From assembly GCA_945873305.1 (NCBI GenBank), contig CAMCCX010000008.1, positions 1 through 50,420 on the forward strand: DNA of 50,420 nt, in the 5' to 3' direction. Below, piece by piece: positions 21,977 through 33,517 of this stretch. The stretch is from Akkermansia muciniphila (GTDB lineage: Bacteria; Verrucomicrobiota; Verrucomicrobiia; Verrucomicrobiales; Akkermansiaceae). Position 1 is the first letter of the stretch; every line of letters begins with the position of its first letter. A model generated the notes under the pieces. That model made no database searches and was not told the origin of the DNA. It saw only the letters and a program-made list of their open reading frames with translations. Made by a program: the position numbers and the translations under genes.

Positions 21977-22189
21977 GAGCGGCGGAGGGTGCGGCAATTT
22001 CGCGCGGCATGACAAGCCGCTTCATTTTTCCTCAAACTTTTTTCTAAGGAAATCCCGCCATCCGTGTCTTCATCACGTAAAGCATGAGCCCGTCCCCGCC
22101 GAATCATGGAAACCCGAACCGCCTGCGCCCGCTCCACGGCTGAAATCCGGCGTGCTCCGGTCATTTCCATCCGCCCGCCGCACCTACCC

Positions 22190-22696
22190 ATGGAGCCCAA
22201 ACCCACACTCCGCCAGGTCTTCGACGCGGAGGAATCCGTGCTGCTCCGCTACGCCCACGGCCTGCTCGGCCAGCGCGAGACCGCGGAAGACATCGTTCAG
22301 GACGCCTTCCTCAAACTCCACGCCCACTGGGAAGAAGTCACCCATCCGCGGGCCTGGCTCTTCCGCTGCACCCGCAATCTCGCCCTCAGCCACCTCCGCG
22401 ACCACAAGCGCGAAACTCCCATGGACCCCGGCCGCGAGTGGGAAAGCCCGACTCCCGATCCCGAGCAAGCCCTCGGCAAACTCGAAGCCATCGGCACCCT
22501 CCAGCTCCTCGTCGCCGAGCTCCACGAAGACGACCGCGCCCTCATTTCCCTCAAGTACCACGACGGCCTCAAATACGACCAGATCAGCCAGCGCACCGGC
22601 CTCTCGGTTGGCAACGTCGGCTACAAACTCCACCACGCCCTGCGAAATTTAGCTGACTCCCTCCGCCGCCTCGGCGTGGAAAGCCCGGAGGGCTGA
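22190..22696 (+). CDS. ECF-type RNA polymerase sigma factor
   Basis: The 168-aa sigma-70 factor has regions 2 and 4 only. Region 2 is LLRYAHGLLGQRETAEDIVQ followed by DAFLKLHAHWEEVTHPRAWL and FRCTRNLALSHLRDHKRE. Region 4 is LHEDDRALISLKYHDGLKYD then QISQRTGLSVGNVGYKLHHA, a clear helix-turn-helix. I prefer ATG 22190 (MEPKPTLRQVFDAEESV); ATG 22106 would add 28 residues of unconserved sequence. It is followed 57 bases later by a membrane protein with an anti-sigma-like N-terminus, the usual pairing, so the sigma factor is probably held at the membrane until a signal arrives. The regulon may include the giant envelope genes downstream. Confidence 0.92.
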   Translation: MEPKPTLRQVFDAEESVLLRYAHGLLGQRETAEDIVQDAFLKLHAHWEEVTHPRAWLFRCTRNLALSHLRDHKRETPMDPGREWESPTPDPEQALGKLEAIGTLQLLVAELHEDDRALISLKYHDGLKYDQISQRTGLSVGNVGYKLHHALRNLADSLRRLGVESPEG

Positions 22697-22753
22697 TCTC
22701 TACCAGATCAACAATCAAAAATTCTCAATCAACAATCGTCAATCCCTCTTCAA
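22697..22753. repeat. AT-rich ATCAACAATC-type repeats between sigma and anti-sigma-like genes
   Basis: The words TCAACAATC, TCAATCAACAATC and GTCAATCC follow one another with little other sequence, giving a 50-base AT-rich patch in an otherwise GC-rich operon. It resembles a dispersed short repeat rather than a regulatory site. Confidence 0.5.
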
Positions 22754-25700
22754 ATGAACGAAGAACCTCCAACCCCATTCGACACCGTCGGCGACGAATC
22801 CGTCGAGGCGCGCATCGTCGCCTGGGTCCTCGGCGAGACCTCCGCCTTCGAGGCCGCGGAACTCGAACGCCTCTGCGAAGAGCGCCCCGAGCTCCACATT
22901 TTCCACCGCCGCATGCTCGCCCTCCACGGCCTCCTCACCGAAGCCGAAGCCGCCGGGAAAGACGAGTCCTGGAAACTCCCGTCCGAGAAGCGCAAGCTCC
23001 TCGACGACATTCTCGGTGAGGAAAAGACCAGCCGGCTGGAACCAAAGAGAGAACTCCGCATCCGTCACAGCGGGCGGCGGGCGTTCCTCGCGATCGCGGC
23101 CTGCCTGGTTCTAACGATCATCGTCGCGAGACTCATAGGTCCTATAGGTCGTATAAGTCCTATGAAAGGCGTCGCAGCCACTGACGCCGCAGCTCAGCCT
23201 CACGCGACTTCCGAGCTAGCCCTCCAAGAACTCAACAAAGCCGTCCGCGACCAGGAATACAAAGTCGAGGAACGCCGCAAGGTCCTCGCCACCATCGTTA
23301 GGACCAAGGGGGTCATCAACAAGGGACAGGATTCTTTCTACGGCCAGTCCGGCGTGGACGAAGACCAAGGTGGTCGCAGCGCGCTCCAAACTTACAATCA
23401 ACTCGAGCAGGAGAAAATGCAGTTGGAGAGTCAGGTCAAGAGCCTGCTGAAATATGACAGCGACCAATTGATGACCTACGCGTCCGGGCTCGATCTACCT
23501 GATAACACCATCAAAAATCTCCAACCGCAGTATCTCGACGCCAAGCGCCAACTGGAATCCGCCAAGGTCAACGGGTTGGGCGATGACCACCCAACGGTGC
23601 AAGCCGCCGCCGAGCAAGTGCAAGCGACCAAGCGTCAGATGGACGAGGGCGTCGTCAACTTGAGGAGTACCCTGCAGGCTCAGTTAGAAATGACGAACGA
23701 TCGCCTGAAAAAGGTCGAGGCCATGAAAGACGACTCGCGCGAGGAAGCCATCAAGCGCGGCCTCGACGCCCAGGACTACGCCGACGCCAAGCGCGATTTC
23801 GAATCCGACCAACAGCTTCTTCAAGCGCTCAAACTCAAACAGATCGAGCAAACCATCGCCTCCAAGATCTCGGGTGGAAGCTTGGCCATGAGCACTCCCG
23901 CCGCCCCCGTCGCCGAATCAGCGCGGGGCGAGGATGGCACCTACCAAATCGAGGCGTCCAAAAAAGACGCGGGCCTCAAGCAAAGTGCCAGACAGAACCA
24001 ACTCGCAAAACAATCTGCCGAACGGCAGCGGGCTAAAAAGCCCGCGGATCTTCAACAACGCGCCGCCTTGGCGGAACCTGGCAATGCCTCCGACATGGAC
24101 GCGATGCCACCGATCGCAGCCAACGACATGTCCGGTGGTTTGGGAGGTGGCCGTGCCAGTGGTCGCTATGCCCTTGCCGCGGAACCCGCAGCTCTTCCGG
24201 CTCCCGCCGCACAGGAGGGGCAGGTGATGAGCACCGTTCCAACCCTTTCCAGATTCGAATCCAAAGACAAAGAGCCCAACTCGCGATCTGCGGCCAAGCC
24301 AAGGGTTGTGCCTCCTGGAAATCGTGCCGATGCGGACGACTATTACAGGAGTGAAAAGGATCATCACCGAGTGGAGCTGCAGTCGCAGGCCGATTCCGCG
24401 TGGAAACTCCCCGTGCCGCCCGTGGTGGGTGCTCTGGCATTCTCAGACGCCTCGTCTTTGGATCAACTCCCGAAGGAAGAACTCGATATCGCTGACGCGG
24501 AAACAACCGAAGGTTCCGAAATTGGAATCATCAGGGAGCTTCATTTCCCCACGGAATATGAACCGGCTCAACCGCCCGAGGAAGCCAAGTTGCTTGTCGA
24601 TCTAATCACCGAAATCCCCGCCGCCGAAAATCCCTACTCCACCTTCTCCCTCAACATCAGCGACGCCTCGTTCCAACTCGCCAAAGCCGCTCTTGCCAAA
24701 GGCGAACGCCCCGATCCCGCCGGCATCAAGCCCGAGCAATTCTACAACGCCGTGGACTACGGCGATCCCGCACCAGCCTCTAACGAACCCGTCGCCGCCA
24801 CCATCGAGCAATCCGCCCATCCGGTCATTCCCGGCAGAAACATCGTCCGCGTCGCTCTCCGCACCGGCTCGGTCGGCCGCAGTGCCGTGCAACCGCTGCG
24901 CCTCACGCTGCTCGTCGATCAATCCGGCTCGATGGTCCGCGAGGACCGCCGCGCTTCGATGGAACACGCGCTCTCACAACTCGGCGTCCTTCTCACCAAG
25001 GCCGACCTCGTCACCGTCATCGGCTTCTCCCGCACCCCGCACCTTCTGGCAGACGGCATGACCGGCGATCAGGCGGTGAAACTCGCCGAAATCGTCAACC
25101 AAACCGCCAGCGAAGGCGGCACAAACATGGAAGAAGCCATGAAACTCGGCGGACAGTTAGCGGAGCGCCACCAACTCGCCGGAGCCCAGAACCGCATCGT
25201 TCTCTTCACCGACGGCGCGGCCAACCTCGGCGACGCCAACCCCGCCCGCCTCGCCGAACAGGTGAAATCGTTCCGCCAGAAAGGCCTCGCCTTCGACATC
25301 GCCGGCATCGGCGCGGACGGCCTGAACGACCGCCTGCTCAGCGAACTCGCCCGCAACGGGAACGGTCGCTACTACGTCGTCGGCGGCGAGAAAAACGACA
25401 GTTTCGCCCGCCAACTCGCCGGAGCCTTCCGCCCCGCCGCCGAGAACGTCAAAGTCCAGGTGAACTTCAATCCGCAGCGCGTCGGGAAATACAAACTCAT
25501 CGGCTTCGAAAAGGACCGCCTGAAAACCGAGGACTTCCGCAATGACGCGGTGGACGCCGCCGAGCTCGCAGCGGAGGAAGCCGGAGTCGCCATCTACCAA
25601 GTCGAGCCGCTCGCCGACGGCACTGGCGAGATCGGCGAGGTCAGCGTCCGTTTCCGCGACGCCGCCAGCAAGGAAATGGTCGAGCGCAGCTGGACGATTC

Positions 25701-25915
25701 CCCACGACGACAATGCCACGACCTTCGACCGCGCCACGCCTTCCATGCAGCTCGCCGGACTCTCGCTGCTGGTTGCCGAAAAGCTCAAGGGCGGCCCGCT
25801 CGCCGACGCCATCGATTTCAAACAACTCGCCGGCCCGACCTCGCTGGTGAAGCAGTTCTACGGCAACAGCCCGCGCGTCAGCGACATGCTGCGCGTCATC
25901 GACGCACTGAAGTAA
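22754..25915 (+). CDS. Membrane protein: anti-sigma-like N-terminus, Wzc-like coiled coil, von Willebrand A domain
   Basis: In this 1053-aa protein residues 15-75 (ARIVAWVLGETSAFEAAELE and following) form the helical segment seen at the start of many anti-sigma-like proteins of this phylum. A transmembrane helix lies at about 110-128. Residues 150-372 are a long coiled coil, and LPDNTIKNLQPQYLDAKRQL, GLGDDHPTVQAAAEQV and DYADAKRDFESDQQLLQALK closely resemble the periplasmic coiled coil of Wzc/GumC-type polysaccharide co-polymerases. A low-complexity linker follows. From about 615 comes a vWA protein of the YfbK type, with MIDAS D722-x-S-x-S (DQSGSM), later NRIVLFTDGAANLGD, and a C-terminal beta domain. 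This order is unusual. It lies 57 bases after the sigma gene. Confidence 0.85.
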   Translation: MNEEPPTPFDTVGDESVEARIVAWVLGETSAFEAAELERLCEERPELHIFHRRMLALHGLLTEAEAAGKDESWKLPSEKRKLLDDILGEEKTSRLEPKRELRIRHSGRRAFLAIAACLVLTIIVARLIGPIGRISPMKGVAATDAAAQPHATSELALQELNKAVRDQEYKVEERRKVLATIVRTKGVINKGQDSFYGQSGVDEDQGGRSALQTYNQLEQEKMQLESQVKSLLKYDSDQLMTYASGLDLPDNTIKNLQPQYLDAKRQLESAKVNGLGDDHPTVQAAAEQVQATKRQMDEGVVNLRSTLQAQLEMTNDRLKKVEAMKDDSREEAIKRGLDAQDYADAKRDFESDQQLLQALKLKQIEQTIASKISGGSLAMSTPAAPVAESARGEDGTYQIEASKKDAGLKQSARQNQLAKQSAERQRAKKPADLQQRAALAEPGNASDMDAMPPIAANDMSGGLGGGRASGRYALAAEPAALPAPAAQEGQVMSTVPTLSRFESKDKEPNSRSAAKPRVVPPGNRADADDYYRSEKDHHRVELQSQADSAWKLPVPPVVGALAFSDASSLDQLPKEELDIADAETTEGSEIGIIRELHFPTEYEPAQPPEEAKLLVDLITEIPAAENPYSTFSLNISDASFQLAKAALAKGERPDPAGIKPEQFYNAVDYGDPAPASNEPVAATIEQSAHPVIPGRNIVRVALRTGSVGRSAVQPLRLTLLVDQSGSMVREDRRASMEHALSQLGVLLTKADLVTVIGFSRTPHLLADGMTGDQAVKLAEIVNQTASEGGTNMEEAMKLGGQLAERHQLAGAQNRIVLFTDGAANLGDANPARLAEQVKSFRQKGLAFDIAGIGADGLNDRLLSELARNGNGRYYVVGGEKNDSFARQLAGAFRPAAENVKVQVNFNPQRVGKYKLIGFEKDRLKTEDFRNDAVDAAELAAEEAGVAIYQVEPLADGTGEIGEVSVRFRDAASKEMVERSWTIPHDDNATTFDRATPSMQLAGLSLLVAEKLKGGPLADAIDFKQLAGPTSLVKQFYGNSPRVSDMLRVIDALK
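23134..23164. repeat. In-frame ATAGGTCCTAT microrepeat just after the transmembrane helix
   Basis: A 31-base run built from TAGGTCCTAT-like words, with outer inverted ends CATAGG and CCTATG, encodes LIGPIGRISPM directly after the membrane helix. Its AT-rich sequence differs sharply from the flanks, so it looks like a short repeat that spread into the gene without breaking the frame. Confidence 0.55.
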
Positions 25916-25948
25916 GGCAGCCAAAAACCACGATCCAAATACCAAGCC

Positions 25949-26680
25949 ATGAAAGCCACGTTAGCCATGAAGCTGAATGTTAGTCCTGTCCTGTTGCTGG
26001 CCATTTTTCTGCCGATTCTTGCCATCCAAGCCAGTGAGAAAGAGGCAGAAAAAGAGACCGCCGTCGCCGTGGAAGCTCCTCCCGCGGATTGGATGGAGTG
26101 GGCGAAATGGGCTGAGAAGCGCCAACCGGTCACCGACGAGCAGGGCCACGGGCCTGACATTGGAAGTGATGAATGGGCAACCGCTCTCGGCCGGCGGCTG
26201 AAGATCAGCGACGATGCCGGACATGGACCCGACATCGGGTCCATGGAATGGCGGCAAGCCGTGGAGAAAAAGCTGAAGGCGAAGGCGGCCCCCGTGCCGG
26301 AGAAGGAGCGCCAGCTGCTTTCCTCCCATGATACCTTGGCCCGGTTTACGGGCTTGAAGGATCACCAATGCCTTGGTCTAACGGTCCTCTGCCCCGACCG
26401 TTGCGGCGAATCAGGCAAGCTCGCCACCTTCGCCATCGTGAAATACCTCGGCTACGAAAAGCCCGGGGAATACGGCGACCCGAAGCAGGAGCAGTTCCAG
26501 ATCCTTATCGAGGACAACCTGAAAACCCCGAAGGTCTCCGCCGCGATCCATGGCGCTATTTCCGCGCTAACACCCGGCGCCCTGGTGCATTTGCGGTGGG
26601 ACCACGACTACGTCACCCAAGGAGGTTCCAAATTCCCCGAGCGCACGATTCGGGAGCTCTCGATCATGAAAGACGAGTAA
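25949..26680 (+). CDS. Secreted protein of unknown function with a repeated GHGPDIGS motif
   Basis: The 243-aa protein has a signal peptide (MKATLAMKLNVSPVLLLAIF, cleavage near IQA-S) and a Glu/Lys-rich stalk. Two repeat units follow: D-E-Q-GHGPDIGSDEW (GHGPDIGS at 66-73) and D-D-A-GHGPDIGSMEW (91-98), 25 residues apart. The C-terminal half (about 125-243) is a predicted beta domain (LTVLCPDRCGESGKLATFAI; LTPGALVHLRWDHDYVTQGG). I do not recognise the family. It starts 33 bases after the vWA gene and ends 63 before the giant gene, so it belongs to that operon. ATG 25967 is an alternative start. Confidence 0.75.
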   Translation: MKATLAMKLNVSPVLLLAIFLPILAIQASEKEAEKETAVAVEAPPADWMEWAKWAEKRQPVTDEQGHGPDIGSDEWATALGRRLKISDDAGHGPDIGSMEWRQAVEKKLKAKAAPVPEKERQLLSSHDTLARFTGLKDHQCLGLTVLCPDRCGESGKLATFAIVKYLGYEKPGEYGDPKQEQFQILIEDNLKTPKVSAAIHGAISALTPGALVHLRWDHDYVTQGGSKFPERTIRELSIMKDE

Positions 26681-26743
26681 GCGCTCCAATTTACAAACCT
26701 TTTACCCACGCGACCCGGAAGTCGTGATAGAAAGCGAATCCAC

Positions 26744-29700
26744 ATGAAAGTCATCATTTTGATGCTCCTCACGCCCTTCCTCCTCGCCCAGGAACCCGAC
26801 GACCGCGTCATCCTCGTCCCGCTGGCCAAGGCCCCGAAAGAAGCCCCGCTTTTCTTCTCCGCCACCGCCGACGTGAAAGTCCAGGTCGGCATGGAGGAAG
26901 TCACCAGCGAACAACAGGTCGATTTCAAAATCCATCAGGGAAAACCCGAGGCCCTAACGATCTCAATGAACGGCGCGGGCGAGATCGTTTCCGTCGCCGG
27001 CCAAGGCCTGCGCGACTGGTCGGTGCGCGTCGCCGAAGACGGCTCGCGCTTTCTCGACGTGCGCCCCGTGCTCAGCGGCGACAAGCTTCCCACGGAATTG
27101 CGCATCCAGGTGAAGACCCGGCTCAAGATCGAAGCCCGGCCCGTCATCCCACTATTGCCCGGACCCGGTTCCGCCACTGGATTCACGGTGGCCATCTCGC
27201 TGACTCCCGACACCGGAGTCGAATTGTTCGTCGAGAAAGCCGAGGGACTCGTGTCGGTGGATGATTCCAACAGCCGCAAATTCCTCGGCTACGGAGCCGC
27301 AAAACTCGAACTCGCGGCCCTGCTAGCCAATACCGGAGCCCGCGGGATCGAACTCGCCGGCACCGCGATGAACGGCCGCCTCGCCGCCGACGGCAACAGC
27401 ATTTCCTTCAAACTAACCGCCATCGCGAAGGCCGCGGCAAAAGGCTCGGCCGTGCAGCTGGCAGGCGGTGGCGCGGCCCTGTCAGGCGGAGTCTCCGGCG
27501 ACGGCTGGCATGTGATGCTCCGCAAGGACGATCGCATGAAAAGCTACGACCTGGTCGCCGAGCGAGCCGGTGAGTTCCCCGTTGAAATCGATTTCGTCGT
27601 CCCGGTGACCCGCAAGGGCGACTGGCGTTCGCTCGGCTTCTATCTACCTTCCGGCGTCGTGGTGCCGGTAAAGATCGAAGGTCTCGGCGAGGCGGTCGCA
27701 TTCGACCGCGCGCTGGCCGTGGTGCCGCAACGCGACGGCAAGGCGTGGCGAGGATTTCTCCCTGCCAACGGCAGTGCCGCGATGGCATGGCGCGAGGCGG
27801 GCATCGTGGCCGACGGCGCGTTGTTCTTCTCCAGCACGGAATCCACCGACGTCCGGATCGGCAGCGGTCTGCTGCGGCAGTTGACGACCGTGGATCTGCG
27901 GGTTCTGCAAGGCAAACTCGCCAATCTATCACTCTCGCTCGACGGCCCCGGCGAGGTGCTGGCGGTGACGGGCGAGCCGGTGCTCGGCTGGTCGGTGATC
28001 GAGGAAAGCGGCAAGCGTCGTCTCGACGTGAAATTGAGCCGTCCGATCGAGGGCGGCGGGCGGATCGTCATCGAGGCGCAATCCGCGCTCGGCGGATTTC
28101 CAGTTAGGGCGGAAGCCCTGCGGATGATTCCCGGCGGCGCGCTGCGCCACAGTGGCTGGCTGCGGGTGGCGAACGAAGGCGCGGTCCGAATCGAAGTCGC
28201 CGACGCCAAGGGCCTGATCCAACTCGCGCCCGGTCAGTTCCCTGGCGGCGTGGACGAGACTCTGCGGCAGGTTTTTGTCTATCGGTTTCCTTCGGCTGAC
28301 TACATCTATGCCATCCAGGCGGACCAGGTCCTGCCAGAAATCGCCGTGACCGAAGTCACTGTCTATGACCTTTCCGAAACCGACCGCCGGATCTCCGCGG
28401 ATCTGGAACTCGACATCCGCGAGGCTCCGCTGCGCGAGTGGGAGTTGGAAATTCCCGCCGATCACGCTGTCGCATCGGTCGCCGGCGCGGCGGTCGCCGA
28501 CTACGCGGTGGCCAGCGAGGTGAAGGAGGGGAAGCGGCGGCTCAAGATCATTTTCAAGGAAGCGGTGATGAACCGCCAGCTCGTCAGCGTGCGCTTGGAA
28601 AAGAACGAGGCCGCCAAATCCGGAGCGTGGGATCTCCAACCGCTCGGTTTCCCTGGTGTGAAATCGCGGCGCGGCTATGTGGGCGCCGTCGCGGCGGCGG
28701 GGTATCGGTTAGTCGCCGGGAAAACAAGCGGAGTCGCCGAGGTGCCGGTCACGTTTTTCCCGAAGAAGACCGCCGGACTGCAACAAGCGTTCCGTCTGCG
28801 TGAAGGTGCTTGGCAGGTCGGCCTGTCTGTCGAAGCGCTTGGCCAAAGCGTGCAGGCGGACGTCTTCCACCTTTACTCGCTCAAGGCGGGCGCGGCTTAC
28901 GGCAGCGTGTTGATCAACTATTTCGTCGTCGGCGCGCCCGCTACCGAGTGGAAGATTTCCGTGCCTGAGGGAGTTGGTAACATCGACGTGACCGGCCAGA
29001 GCGTCGGTCGCGATTGGCGGCGCGAGGGCAACACGGTGATCGTGCCTCTATCACGTCCGGTTCTCGGCACCGGCACCGTGCTGCTCACCTTCGAGCAGCC
29101 GATGAGCGCCCGTGGCGGCCAGCTAACACCCGGAGAGGTCCGCCCGCTCGAGGTGCAGGCCGAGCGCGGCTATGTGCAGGTGGTCAGTCCGCTCCAGGTG
29201 AAATTCGCCAAGCCCGTTAGCGAGGGGCCTTTGTTAGCGATCGACGCCAGCGAGCTGCCTGCGGAATTCCGCCTGCTCAGCACCGCGCCGACACTCGCCG
29301 CGTGGCAATACACCGCGCGCGATTTCAAGATTGCGATGAAGGTCGAGTGGTTCAATCCGGGCGAAACCGTCGAGCAGGTCGTCGATTTCCTCAAGCTTTC
29401 CAGCCAGGTCTCGCGCGATGGCCAATGGGTGACTGACGCCCGTTTTTTCGTCAAATCACGAGGCCGTAGCGCCTTGCGCGCGACTCTGCCTGAAGGAGCC
29501 GCGTTGTGGGAAGCCAAGGTCAACGGCGAGGCGGTGAACGCCCGCGCCGACGGCGGCGAAACGCTGGTGCCGCTGCCCTCGCAGATCGATCCTAACAAGT
29601 CCGTGGAAATCACCCTGCGCTACGGAGCTCGCGCCGGAAACCCGAGGCATCCGCGCCTCTCCGCACCGCGTTTGGCCGCGCCGGTCGTCATCGGTGAGTG

Positions 29701-32700
29701 GACGGTCACCGGCGATGAAGGACGACAACTCGTGCCCCGCGGCGGCACGGCGGAACTGGTGCGGCCCGCTCTCGCGGAAAGCGGTTGGGAGTGGCTGGCG
29801 CGGCACTCGCGGATGGTGGGCGGGTTCTTCATGTTAGGAATCGCGGCGCTGACTCTCGGCTCGGGAAACGCCACCGGAGTCCGCCGGGTGTTCGCGCTGT
29901 TGATAGGGGTTGCATTCATCGCCACGGCGGCGGGCCTCGGCCTGTGGGCCGCCACGACCAGTCGGGGCAATGCGGCGGTGCTCGAGTATGCCGCGCCGGT
30001 GGTGGCCGCGGGCAGCGAGGTGGCCGTGGAGCTCGGCAATTTCCCTGCATGGCAAGCGCGCACGGGGTGGGGGATGTGGCTGGTCTTCGGCCTCGGCGTG
30101 GCGATCGTCCTGCGTGGCTGGTTGTTCAGCGACCGCTGGTGGAAAGCCTGCGGACTGGCGATGCTGGCGGCCTCGTTTCTATCCATCCGTGGTGGCTCGG
30201 GCTTGTTTTTCGGAGTGGCGGTGCTGGTGGGGCTGGCGTGGTGGCTGCCCCGGATCTTCCAAGCGTTCCGTGACCGCAGGCCACCCGTCGCGGAAGCGGC
30301 GGCGGCGATGCTTTTACTAACCGGCCTTTGTTTCACCGACGCCCGCGCCGCGGAGATCCCGGGCCTGAAGCCCGCGGAATCCATGATTCATGACTGGCAG
30401 ATCCGCGACGGGCGCTTGCTCGGAACGCTGGAGGTGACGCTGCGGGCCGAGGCCGGCGATCGTTTCCGCTTGCTGCACGCCCCGGCGGTGCTGAGTGGTT
30501 TCGATGGAGCCGGAATGCGGGTGACCAAGGCTCTGGTAGAAGGTGAGACCTCCTATCTGATCGTCGCGGAAGCGGCGGGACGCCTCACTGGCAAGGCCGT
30601 GTTCGAAATGCCGCTCCCCGATCCCGGAAAAGGCTGGACGCTCCCCGGCGGTCCCGCCGCGCTGCGGCAGGTGACGTTGCGGTGGGATCAGGGCGGTTGG
30701 GAATTTTTCTCGCCCGGCGCGGCGAAAGTCACCGCACTCGAAGGCCTGAAAACCAACGAAAGCGGCGCGGTCATGGTGCTGGGGCCGGCTGATCCGGTGT
30801 CGATCCAGGCCCGTCCGAAACAGCGCGATGTCGGCACCGAGGAAACCAGGTTTTTCGCCGAGGTTTCCAATCTCTATCTGCCCGGACCCGGCGTGGTCAA
30901 CGGCCGCCACCGCGTCTCGATCCGTCCCGCGCAGGGTCGGGTTTCCGCGCTGGTGATGACGGTGCCCGAGGGTTTTACGGTTAGCGACGCGATCGACGGG
31001 CCGGTCGGTTCGTGGCGATTCGATCCGGTAAAACGCGAGCTGCGCGTGCCGGTCGAGCCCGCGCAGGACCAGGCGTTCGGCTTCACCATCGAGACTCAGC
31101 GCGGTGCCGGGGCCTTGCCGATCAATCTCGATCTCGCGCCGGTCCGGGTGACCGGCTCGGCAGGCGAGGTTGGATTCCTCGCACTGGCCTTCGGCGAGGA
31201 GGCTCAGCCGGAGTCTGTCAACGTCGAGGGACTTTCGCGGGTGAATCCGGGGGATTTCAACGACAAGTTGCTGCCTCGCGACAAGCAGGGGAATCCGCTC
31301 GCGCTGCTCCAGCATGCGTTCCGTTATGGCACGGGTGAGGTGGTGGCGCGCGTGAATGTCGCGGCCGTCGCCCCCGAGCTGCGGGCGGAGTCGTGGCAGC
31401 TCGTTTCGCTGGGCGAGGACCGGTTAGTGGTGTCCGCCGATCTATCAGTCACGATCACGCGCTCCGGCGTCTTCCGTCTGGCGGTCGAGGTGCCGGAGGG
31501 CTTGGAGATCGAGGCCGCCACCGGCGAGGGGTTGAGCCACTGGACGGAAGGCAAGACCGAAGGCAAGCGCGTGGTGACCTTGCACCTGACCGGCAAGACG
31601 ATGGGCAAGCGCGATTTCAACCTCACCCTGACCGGACGCCCGCCCGGCGCGCAGGAGAAATGGCAGGTGCCGCGCTTGTCGCTGCGTGATGCCTCGCGTG
31701 AGACCGGCGTCCTAACCATCGCCCCCGAGCGCGGCTTGCAAGTCCGCGCGGTGGACCGCAAGAACGTCTCCCAGCTCGACCCGCGCGAGCTTGCCGATGC
31801 GCCGAAGGAATCCTCCCGCGCCGCCGCCCGGCCCGGTGCGTTGGCGTATCGTTTGTTGCAGAGCGATTGGTCGCTCGGGCTCGCGATCAGCCGCCTCGAT
31901 CCCTGGGTGACGGCGCAGGTCTTCCATGAAGCGACTTTGCGCGAGGGGCAGATGCTCACCCGCGTGATGATCGGTTATAAAATCGAGAACTCCGCGCTCA
32001 AGTCGCTGCGGGTGCGCATCCCCGGACTCGATGCCACCGCCGCCGCCACCGTCCGTGGCGGTGGTCCGGCTGTCGCTGAGGTGGTTCGCGTTGAAGGCGA
32101 GCGGGATGTTTGGGATATCAACTTCCAGCGCGGCGTGGCCGGGGAAACCCGTGTCGAGCTGGAATACCAGCGCGCCAGCAAGGACGACGGCGGCGAGGTG
32201 ATCGAACCGGTGGTGCTGGAGCAAGTCCGGCAGTTAGTCTATTTCGCAGCGGTCCGTGCGGGCGGCCGGATGGAACTGGAATCCGGCGTCCTGCCCCGCG
32301 GCTGGCAGCGCGCGGATTGGGGAGCGGTGCAGTCCACGCTTGGGCAAGCCGCCGGTAATGTCGCCCCGCTGATGGCTTTCCGGGTGGCGGATCCGGAAGG
32401 TCCGCTGCCGGTGATTTTGAAACGCCACCAGCTCGCCGACTTGCAAAAACTCCGCGTGGCCGACGGGACCCTAACGACGTTGATCTCGCCCCGCGGCGAC
32501 GCGCTCACCGCCGTGGATTTGAAGATGCAGGTCGTCGGCAAAGGCACGCTGCGCCTGAAACTGCCGAAGGACTCCGCGCTCTTCAACGTGCTGGTCAACG
32601 ACGAGGGGGCCACGCTGGTCCGTGAGGGCGACGAGTGGTTGTTCTACGTTTTCCCGGCGCCCGAAGTCGGCCGCCCGGCCACCGTGCGCTTCGTGTATTC

Positions 32701-33517
32701 GGCCGGAACGGCCAAGGGCAGGCGGCTCGAAGGCCCGATACTCGACGTTCCGATGGAGAATCTCACCTGGCGCGTGCTCGTGCCGGAGGGCTGGCGAATG
32801 GCGGACCACGGCGGCGACTTCGACCTGAGACAACAGGCCGCGATGGGCAAGTTCGGGCTGGAGGACTATCAGTCGTTCGTCCAGAGCAAGAAGCAGAGCG
32901 ATTCGAAAAGCGCCGTCGCCTTGCTTGACCAGGCGAACTCCTGGCTCGCCGCGGGGGATCAGGAGAAAGCCAGCAACGCCTTCAGCAACGCCGTCCGCAG
33001 CAACCAGCTCGACGCGGCGTCCGGCGAGGACGCCCGCGTCCAGCTCCGCCAGCTCAAGACCCAGCAGGCCGTGTTAGGACTCAACACCCGCCGCCAGAAG
33101 CTCGCGATCGACAACCGCGGCGCGGCTCAACAAGCGGACAACGCCCAGCTCGACCGCGCCGCCGAGGCCAACCCCGTTCTGCGCGGCGGCTACAACTACG
33201 ATCCCAAACAGTTCGACCGTTTCCTCGAAGGAAACACCTCCGACGAGAACGCCGCGCTCAAGGAAATCGCCAACCGCATCGTCACCCAACAGCTCGCCGC
33301 CGAGCCCGCGCCGGTCGCGCTCGACGTGACGCTGCCGGAGCGCGGCACGGTGCTGACGTTCGGCCGCAGCGTGCAGGTGGACGGCCAGCGGCCGATGTCC
33401 ATCACGCTCGACTTGAAGCGCAGTGGCGGCGGGTTTGCCTGGATTGCGATCCTGGTCTGCTTGCTGCTAGGCGGGATGGTGGGCGTGAACCGGCCGGCCA
33501 GGAGATCTCCCGACTGA
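26744..33517 (+). CDS. Giant (2257 aa) envelope protein with two related halves and a central membrane bundle
   Basis: This protein is not assigned to a known family. It has a signal peptide (MKVIILMLLTPFLLA-QEPDD). Residues 20-1010 are beta-rich and Trp/Gly-spaced. About six hydrophobic segments follow between 1024 and 1175. A second signal-peptide-like segment (AAAMLLLTGLCFTDARA-AE, about 1187-1206) leads into a second beta-rich half (1207-2040). Next come a helical, Gln-rich region (2045-2160), a short beta segment, and a last membrane helix (FAWIAILVCLLLGGMVGVNR). The halves are related: AWQVGLSVEALGQSVQADVF (about 689) matches SDWSLGLAISRLDPWVTAQV (about 1708), and LPEGAALWEAKVNGEAV (about 915) matches LPKDSALFNVLVNDEGA (about 1940). 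The stop codon lies in a palindromic repeat. Confidence 0.8.
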   Translation: MKVIILMLLTPFLLAQEPDDRVILVPLAKAPKEAPLFFSATADVKVQVGMEEVTSEQQVDFKIHQGKPEALTISMNGAGEIVSVAGQGLRDWSVRVAEDGSRFLDVRPVLSGDKLPTELRIQVKTRLKIEARPVIPLLPGPGSATGFTVAISLTPDTGVELFVEKAEGLVSVDDSNSRKFLGYGAAKLELAALLANTGARGIELAGTAMNGRLAADGNSISFKLTAIAKAAAKGSAVQLAGGGAALSGGVSGDGWHVMLRKDDRMKSYDLVAERAGEFPVEIDFVVPVTRKGDWRSLGFYLPSGVVVPVKIEGLGEAVAFDRALAVVPQRDGKAWRGFLPANGSAAMAWREAGIVADGALFFSSTESTDVRIGSGLLRQLTTVDLRVLQGKLANLSLSLDGPGEVLAVTGEPVLGWSVIEESGKRRLDVKLSRPIEGGGRIVIEAQSALGGFPVRAEALRMIPGGALRHSGWLRVANEGAVRIEVADAKGLIQLAPGQFPGGVDETLRQVFVYRFPSADYIYAIQADQVLPEIAVTEVTVYDLSETDRRISADLELDIREAPLREWELEIPADHAVASVAGAAVADYAVASEVKEGKRRLKIIFKEAVMNRQLVSVRLEKNEAAKSGAWDLQPLGFPGVKSRRGYVGAVAAAGYRLVAGKTSGVAEVPVTFFPKKTAGLQQAFRLREGAWQVGLSVEALGQSVQADVFHLYSLKAGAAYGSVLINYFVVGAPATEWKISVPEGVGNIDVTGQSVGRDWRREGNTVIVPLSRPVLGTGTVLLTFEQPMSARGGQLTPGEVRPLEVQAERGYVQVVSPLQVKFAKPVSEGPLLAIDASELPAEFRLLSTAPTLAAWQYTARDFKIAMKVEWFNPGETVEQVVDFLKLSSQVSRDGQWVTDARFFVKSRGRSALRATLPEGAALWEAKVNGEAVNARADGGETLVPLPSQIDPNKSVEITLRYGARAGNPRHPRLSAPRLAAPVVIGEWTVTGDEGRQLVPRGGTAELVRPALAESGWEWLARHSRMVGGFFMLGIAALTLGSGNATGVRRVFALLIGVAFIATAAGLGLWAATTSRGNAAVLEYAAPVVAAGSEVAVELGNFPAWQARTGWGMWLVFGLGVAIVLRGWLFSDRWWKACGLAMLAASFLSIRGGSGLFFGVAVLVGLAWWLPRIFQAFRDRRPPVAEAAAAMLLLTGLCFTDARAAEIPGLKPAESMIHDWQIRDGRLLGTLEVTLRAEAGDRFRLLHAPAVLSGFDGAGMRVTKALVEGETSYLIVAEAAGRLTGKAVFEMPLPDPGKGWTLPGGPAALRQVTLRWDQGGWEFFSPGAAKVTALEGLKTNESGAVMVLGPADPVSIQARPKQRDVGTEETRFFAEVSNLYLPGPGVVNGRHRVSIRPAQGRVSALVMTVPEGFTVSDAIDGPVGSWRFDPVKRELRVPVEPAQDQAFGFTIETQRGAGALPINLDLAPVRVTGSAGEVGFLALAFGEEAQPESVNVEGLSRVNPGDFNDKLLPRDKQGNPLALLQHAFRYGTGEVVARVNVAAVAPELRAESWQLVSLGEDRLVVSADLSVTITRSGVFRLAVEVPEGLEIEAATGEGLSHWTEGKTEGKRVVTLHLTGKTMGKRDFNLTLTGRPPGAQEKWQVPRLSLRDASRETGVLTIAPERGLQVRAVDRKNVSQLDPRELADAPKESSRAAARPGALAYRLLQSDWSLGLAISRLDPWVTAQVFHEATLREGQMLTRVMIGYKIENSALKSLRVRIPGLDATAAATVRGGGPAVAEVVRVEGERDVWDINFQRGVAGETRVELEYQRASKDDGGEVIEPVVLEQVRQLVYFAAVRAGGRMELESGVLPRGWQRADWGAVQSTLGQAAGNVAPLMAFRVADPEGPLPVILKRHQLADLQKLRVADGTLTTLISPRGDALTAVDLKMQVVGKGTLRLKLPKDSALFNVLVNDEGATLVREGDEWLFYVFPAPEVGRPATVRFVYSAGTAKGRRLEGPILDVPMENLTWRVLVPEGWRMADHGGDFDLRQQAAMGKFGLEDYQSFVQSKKQSDSKSAVALLDQANSWLAAGDQEKASNAFSNAVRSNQLDAASGEDARVQLRQLKTQQAVLGLNTRRQKLAIDNRGAAQQADNAQLDRAAEANPVLRGGYNYDPKQFDRFLEGNTSDENAALKEIANRIVTQQLAAEPAPVALDVTLPERGTVLTFGRSVQVDGQRPMSITLDLKRSGGGFAWIAILVCLLLGGMVGVNRPARRSPD

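Follow-up and report, generated by a model that had tools for sequence, protein, structure and literature searches.

Across the Verrucomicrobiota, genes for an ECF sigma factor, a membrane protein with a vWA domain and a giant envelope protein form a conserved three-gene operon, represented here in a stretch of 50,420 nucleotides from Akkermansia muciniphila (hereafter the window). The vWA protein very probably acts as anti-sigma factor to this sigma factor and, to judge from the phylogenies of its middle region, pieces of the pilus secretin PilQ and of Wzc-type kinases have been taken up independently many times within the family. We propose, with a probability of roughly 40%, that this is an autoregulated envelope sigma/anti-sigma operon with homotypic sensing of PilQ or Wzc subunits. 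The features in the window are as follows.

22042–22069, + strand: promoter TTCTAAG-N15-GTGTCT, putative recognition site of the sigma factor (footprint across an alignment of 17 loci)
22106–22696, + strand: ECF sigma factor, 196 aa (PF04542, PF08281; conserved ATGGAA start)
22754–25915, + strand: candidate anti-sigma/vWA membrane protein of YfbK type, 1053 aa (by its domains and the zf-HC2 of orthologues)
22754–23161, + strand: cytoplasmic anti-sigma-like domain and transmembrane segment, aa 1–136 (position matches the zf-HC2-bearing N-termini of distant orthologues)
23228–23869, + strand: coiled-coil module homologous to the periplasmic coil of Wzc-type kinases (72–76% identity to the Wzc coils of nearest relatives)
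24335–24424, + strand: weak, possible remnant of a PilQ (Amuc_1098-type) TPR, aa 528–557 (14.7 bits to the PilQ TPR query)
24620–25612, + strand: vWF_A, vWA with intact MIDAS, and truncated YfbK_C (PF12450, PF00092/PF13519, PF12034)
25949–26680, + strand: GHGPDIGS exported protein (P0003), an optional passenger (only the window, L039, L042 and L047 have it here)
26744–33517, + strand: giant envelope protein, 2257 aa (open reading frame conserved beside the vWA gene)
26789–29878, + strand: N-terminal arm of the giant, tandem beta-sandwich domains (model m7485290d21dc, pLDDT 84.9)
29816–30352, + strand: central membrane block of the giant, its last segment signal-peptide-like with A-x-A (hydrophobic segments in 17 orthologues)
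30356–33511, + strand: C-terminal arm of the giant, helical TPR-like end and final transmembrane segment (model mfc2a220e964d, pLDDT 83)

The four open reading frames lie on the + strand with intergenic gaps of 57, 33 and 63 bases, positions which we verified in the sequence and which agree with the first-pass annotation. That annotation had further supposed that all four genes work together, and this stood for three of them: the sigma, vWA and giant genes are adjacent and in order over many families and stay together when relatives are checked for independent occurrence, whereas the GHGPDIGS gene is sporadic and does not travel with them. Among the relatives compared, mostly Akkermansiaceae, Luteolibacter and Prosthecobacter MAGs, the giant is present in 45 of 97 genomes of the window's family, and 41 of these 45 carry the short-type YfbK_C of the vWA protein, always on the same contig and adjoining the giant. 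The remaining four hold decayed remnants (G076, G049) or incomplete giants (G077, G086), and the vWA gene adjoins every intact, checkable giant of the family (41/41). Some 31 loci with flanks show the three genes in order on one strand, mostly with gaps of less than 150 bases and in several cases with overlaps of 4 to 23 bases, the 4-base overlap being frequent.

The triad also occurs in other families of the same order and, more widely, a profile search with the giant at E ≤ 1e-8 matched 74 of 388 Verrucomicrobiota genomes, where the matched reading frames are mostly 2,050–2,500 aa long and a minority are partial matches to related proteins. In other orders and classes the triad is kept in 24 of 28 usable loci (those not cut by contig ends), and in four far loci the giant has no adjoining sigma or vWA gene. 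Genes flanking the operon are not conserved beyond near relatives: the glgA/AmiA/RNase H flanks are confined to the nearest relatives, and none of the other loci compared has glnD, which rules out chance synteny or shared flanks. The conservation of triad order across the phylum thus argues for an association that is more than chance.

Several loci depart from this arrangement. No sigma or vWA gene adjoins the giant at L171, L172, L176 and L181, with L172 and L181 belonging to a family with small genomes (1.8–2.1 Mb), and the giant was found in none of the 10 genomes of group g3, which are also small (2.3–3.2 Mb). Two tandem anti-sigma vWA genes lie between the sigma factor and the giant at L163:8669-13602, and in G076 (L116 and L233; G076:C8:60151-60511) the operon has decayed to the sigma promoter and two giant fragments. 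The GHGPDIGS gene is an optional passenger and not a conserved operon member: it adjoins the giant in four loci only, in two of which (L042 and L047) just its C-terminal part is present, and its two halves occur at other places in other genomes. We therefore dropped it as a core part of the operon.

The sigma factor is of the standard kind first described, with PF04542 (sigma2) and PF08281 (sigma4) over cut-off, no sigma3, and a length of 168–196 aa. Its start is most likely at 22106 and not at the internal methionine (22190) chosen in the first-pass annotation, because almost all of the 17 loci have an aligned ATGGAA at this point, with a conserved promoter 36 nt upstream. In the upstream alignment of these loci TTCYAAG-N15-GTGTCT is conserved amid otherwise diverged sequence. 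All 29 family loci and six of the seven further loci from this order have a promoter scoring at least 10 of 12, nearly always with the spacer kept at 15 nt, while shuffles mostly score 8–9. The window's 3.06-Mb genome has one exact match to the pattern, at the triad operon. Given this conservation throughout the order and the single occurrence in the genome, it is likely that the sigma factor autoregulates its own operon through this promoter.

A small regulon beyond the operon is possible, and a wider one is unsupported in the window's genome, given the single occurrence there of the exact pattern. A search for the exact pattern in 20 relatives returned 30 matches, 13 of them at the sigma–vWA–giant operon; most of the others lie within 61 nt of an open reading frame start, many with signal-like starts. 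A tighter pattern gave 24 matches in 97 genomes against one for the reversed control, and 10 of the 24 mark the operon or its remnant; some genomes without an intact operon also show matches to the pattern. Exported or membrane proteins encoded right behind the same motif in relatives (L203, L208, L216/L228, L219, L227, L230 and L231, with L216 and L228 being orthologues) may be members of such a regulon. Downstream of the sigma gene, the AT-rich stretch before the vWA gene (22697–22745) has 42–48-base copies, 83–90% identical, elsewhere in the genome, and a search there for a hairpin found nothing strong.

The anti-sigma role of the vWA protein is assigned because distant orthologues begin with a zinc anti-sigma domain: zf-HC2 exceeds the curated Pfam cut-off in seven of 10 such orthologues, and HxxxCxxC is present in 19–20 of 26 N-termini. 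The candidate gene directly follows the sigma gene, an arrangement that is conserved. The N-terminus of the window's own protein has no Pfam match, zf-HC2 included, and no HxxxCxxC, a motif absent also from same-class relatives L158–L161 and L170. Together with the ECF-like promoter, the anti-sigma domain of the distant orthologues lends substance to the initial suggestion that the system is signal-controlled. Behind the single transmembrane segment (aa 106–136) and a middle region, PF12450, VWA and PF12034 follow in order, all over cut-off, in 16 of 16 orthologues, although the window's YfbK_C domain is incomplete, covering only positions 4–64 of 184; it is near complete in several far orthologues. 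The MIDAS residues (DxSGS, T790 and D820) are invariant in the 16 family orthologues, with DxSGS kept in far orthologues as well, and the coil is of the Wzz/Wzc type, so that the vWA protein with a polymer-chain-type coiled coil and a metal site is much as first described. The vWA proteins vary from about 810 to 1730 aa, and this variation lies between the transmembrane segment and the vWA module, where the hypervariable middle is bounded by conserved ends.

This organization resembles that of ECF sigma factors with membrane zinc anti-sigma factors (the zf-HC2 or ZAS class) in its two-domain sigma factor, in the conserved promoter upstream of it, and in a next gene encoding an N-terminal anti-sigma domain, a transmembrane segment and a periplasmic sensor. 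It differs from that class in that the periplasmic part in the window consists of a YfbK-type vWA module and self-derived modules, that a partner gene of about 2,200 aa follows the anti-sigma gene, and that the zinc motif has been lost in the window's lineage. Similarly, PF12450, VWA and PF12034 stand in the same order as in the YfbK family (E. coli yfbK), with the MIDAS intact, but in the window the module is fused to an anti-sigma end and a transmembrane segment, and its family has YfbK_C in truncated form. Canonical YfbK copies exist in relatives, where L125 and L126 are directly preceded by another ECF sigma factor. Similarity to BatA of the Bat aerotolerance system (BatA/BatB/BatD/BatE) is weak and at the level of the VWA domain only.

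The giant begins with a signal-like sequence, as does the GHGPDIGS protein, in agreement with the earlier view that both are exported and match no known family: neither has a Pfam or NCBIfam match, and for the giant a PDB sequence search gave no credible match. Its architecture comprises the signal peptide, a beta-rich arm, the membrane block, a homologous second arm, TPR-like helices and a C-terminal transmembrane segment, with each arm about 1,000 aa long; a profile of the N-terminal arm matches the C-terminal arm at more than 100 bits in several orthologues. The membrane block has four to seven hydrophobic segments, mostly six, in 17 orthologues, in most of which the last segment ends A-x-A-like, as might result from the fusion of two exported proteins, and cleavage at this internal A-x-A is possible. 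By prediction, the inner membrane anchors the giant and both arms lie on the periplasmic side; the surface assembly that had been proposed stays conjectural. A second, separate system is found elsewhere in the order: other families encode giant-related proteins of 1,000–3,300 aa by two or three genes in tandem, with no adjoining sigma or vWA gene (L096–L107, L113, L114, L117, L120, L122–L124).

Models of the arms have good local confidence (pLDDT 83–85) and a low-confidence overall arrangement (pTM about 0.4). Ribophorin I/Ost1, integrin alpha and the alpha-2-macroglobulin family are the fold matches of the N-terminal arm, and the M1 aminopeptidase N-domain also appears among the arm matches. 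The stacked beta-sandwiches of the arms are like those of ribophorin I/Ost1, integrin alpha and the M1 aminopeptidase N-domain, but this is a likeness of fold only, at about 10% identity, low TM-scores and no sequence relation. The resemblance to integrin alpha and ribophorin I would suit another explanation, namely that the giant itself is the sensor, its arms reading the state of the cell wall or outer membrane and pulling on the vWA domain through the metal site in the manner of integrin-type adhesion. The giant and the vWA module are the most constant parts of the system, and the invariance of the MIDAS in the family, with DxSGS retained far beyond it, would fit such a role. Against this, the fold matches have TM-scores of 0.1–0.3, as expected of generic stacked beta-sandwiches, and the giant–vWA contact is putative, so that we consider a sensing giant unlikely.

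The middle of the vWA protein is a mosaic. In Akkermansia the type IV pilus secretin is Amuc_1098 (PMC4960237). Of 16 vWA members, 12 match the Amuc_1098 (PilQ) family, with E values down to 3e-111 but with scores well short of its cut-off: the best vWA protein scores 373 bits against the 750 of the family, mostly through its N-terminal part, and thus falls outside the secretin family. TPR, STN/secretin-N and other pieces of many vWA proteins derive from Amuc_1098-type PilQ but, unlike that secretin, the vWA proteins have no complete secretin domain and no pore. Strong PilQ modules are found in the vWA proteins of relatives; the window's protein lacks one and scores 11.5 bits to the Amuc_1098 family. 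In 17 of 24 genomes the PilQ module is nearest to the PilQ of its own genome, where about 0.7 would be expected by chance. The PilQ tree (52 rows) needs 15 label changes, at least 13 of them forced by supported branches, and rejects a single clade of PilQ modules (p-AU 8e-37), which excludes one ancient capture, the overall pattern in this tree being surer than single placements because of some long branches. Likewise, vWA coils are nearest to the Wzc of their own genome in 12 of 14 family cases, and at least 10 label changes are forced in the coil tree. The donor type of the window's coil, which is 72–76% identical to the periplasmic coil in nearest relatives, is the Wzc-type tyrosine kinase (Wzz, GNVR and AAA_31); unlike such kinases, the window's vWA protein has no kinase domain by its Pfam domains and no tyrosine cluster, and the window's own 95% complete assembly yielded no Wzc donor.

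The vWA genes and the pilQ of their own genomes have 35 DNA pieces in common that are in frame and none that are shifted, with a single antisense piece of 19 nt. Synonymous sites are mostly saturated, which excludes recent gene conversion from pilQ; dN is 0.07–0.45, and dN/dS at most 0.32 where computable. The captures are thus old and kept under purifying selection, since dS is saturated while dN has stayed in this range, and the 35:0 ratio with the low dN/dS disfavours neutral insertion of random sequence. The secretin lip motif VP.LGDIP.LG.LF is present in eight of 76 vWA proteins, one of them from another class, against 0.1 in shuffles, and some vWA orthologues have no recognisable PilQ or Wzc module. 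Apart from the operon, reading frames of about 2,250–2,330 aa on other contigs, which are not the operon's giant, hold PilQ-like pieces at Amuc_1098 positions 209–460 (G061:C13:513232-514122, G090:C12:94058-94765, G009:C3:948686-949390, G064:C8:257116-257733 and G026:C232:119883-120485).

It is conceivable that the operon is an ordinary sigma/anti-sigma pair in which the captured pieces are merely stable periplasmic spacers, the signal entering otherwise through the vWA domain and the giant. The widely varying length of the middle and the orthologues without a recognisable piece would suit this, as would the restriction of conservation to the anti-sigma end, the vWA module and the giant. However, the exclusively in-frame copying and a dN/dS well below 1 imply that the pieces matter by their amino-acid sequence, and mainly two donor families were found, which makes spacers improbable. 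The self-derived modules instead suggest either sensing of the PilQ and Wzc machines or a decoy. The latter, in which the copies bait phages, bacteriocins or predators, an attack on the bait releases the sigma factor and renewed copying maintains the likeness, draws on the recurrent independent uptake, from a genome's own genes, of segments that differ between lineages (short lip peptides included) and on the hypervariable middle between conserved ends, but is very doubtful given saturated synonymous sites and low dN/dS, marks of old, conserved modules and not of fast renewal. An anti-sigma factor with lineage-specific PilQ and Wzc copies as sensors, acquired anew in many lineages and reading the assembly of these machines or an attack on them, is a reading to which we hold tentatively.

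In the homotypic sensing that we propose, the vWA protein would sit in the inner membrane, hold the ECF sigma factor by means of the N-terminal domain on its cytoplasmic side and expose to the periplasm a long tail of the variable middle followed by the metal-binding vWA module. Its putative partner would be the giant, likewise anchored in the inner membrane and reaching into the periplasm with its two long beta-sandwich arms, a contact that we infer from synteny. PilQ or Wzc subunits that are unassembled, mislocalised or overloaded would bind the matching copy in the anti-sigma middle; the contact between vWA protein and giant would change, and the freed sigma factor would direct transcription of the operon, perhaps along with a small number of other envelope genes. 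The PilQ secretin and the Wzc kinase both work as oligomers, and it is for this reason that sensing of like by like is suggested. In enterobacteria, envelope stress is known to arise from mislocalised secretins and to trigger the Psp response, and a sensor of secretin stress is therefore plausible. The computational footing of this proposal is the conserved operon, the anti-sigma domain of distant orthologues, the conserved promoter and the purifying selection on self-derived modules; the binding of the sigma factor, the direction of sensing and PilQ or Wzc as the signal are its presumptive parts. Counting against it, the window's vWA protein has neither a zinc motif nor a strong PilQ module and its assembly no Wzc donor, some orthologues are without a recognisable module of either kind, and the four far loci carry the giant without sigma and vWA genes; nor do the short secretin-lip pieces fit homotypic docking easily.

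Literature searches of open-licence PMC papers found no description of the sigma–vWA–giant system. A phylum-wide sigma/anti-sigma operon with a giant that matches no Pfam or NCBIfam family and no PDB sequence marks a large blank in the envelope biology of the Verrucomicrobiota. A sensor assembled, time and again, from pieces that an anti-sigma factor has taken from the secretin and capsule kinase of its own cell would be novel in its construction, and the mosaic anti-sigma factor would offer a direct, testable link between the pilus and capsule machinery and transcription.
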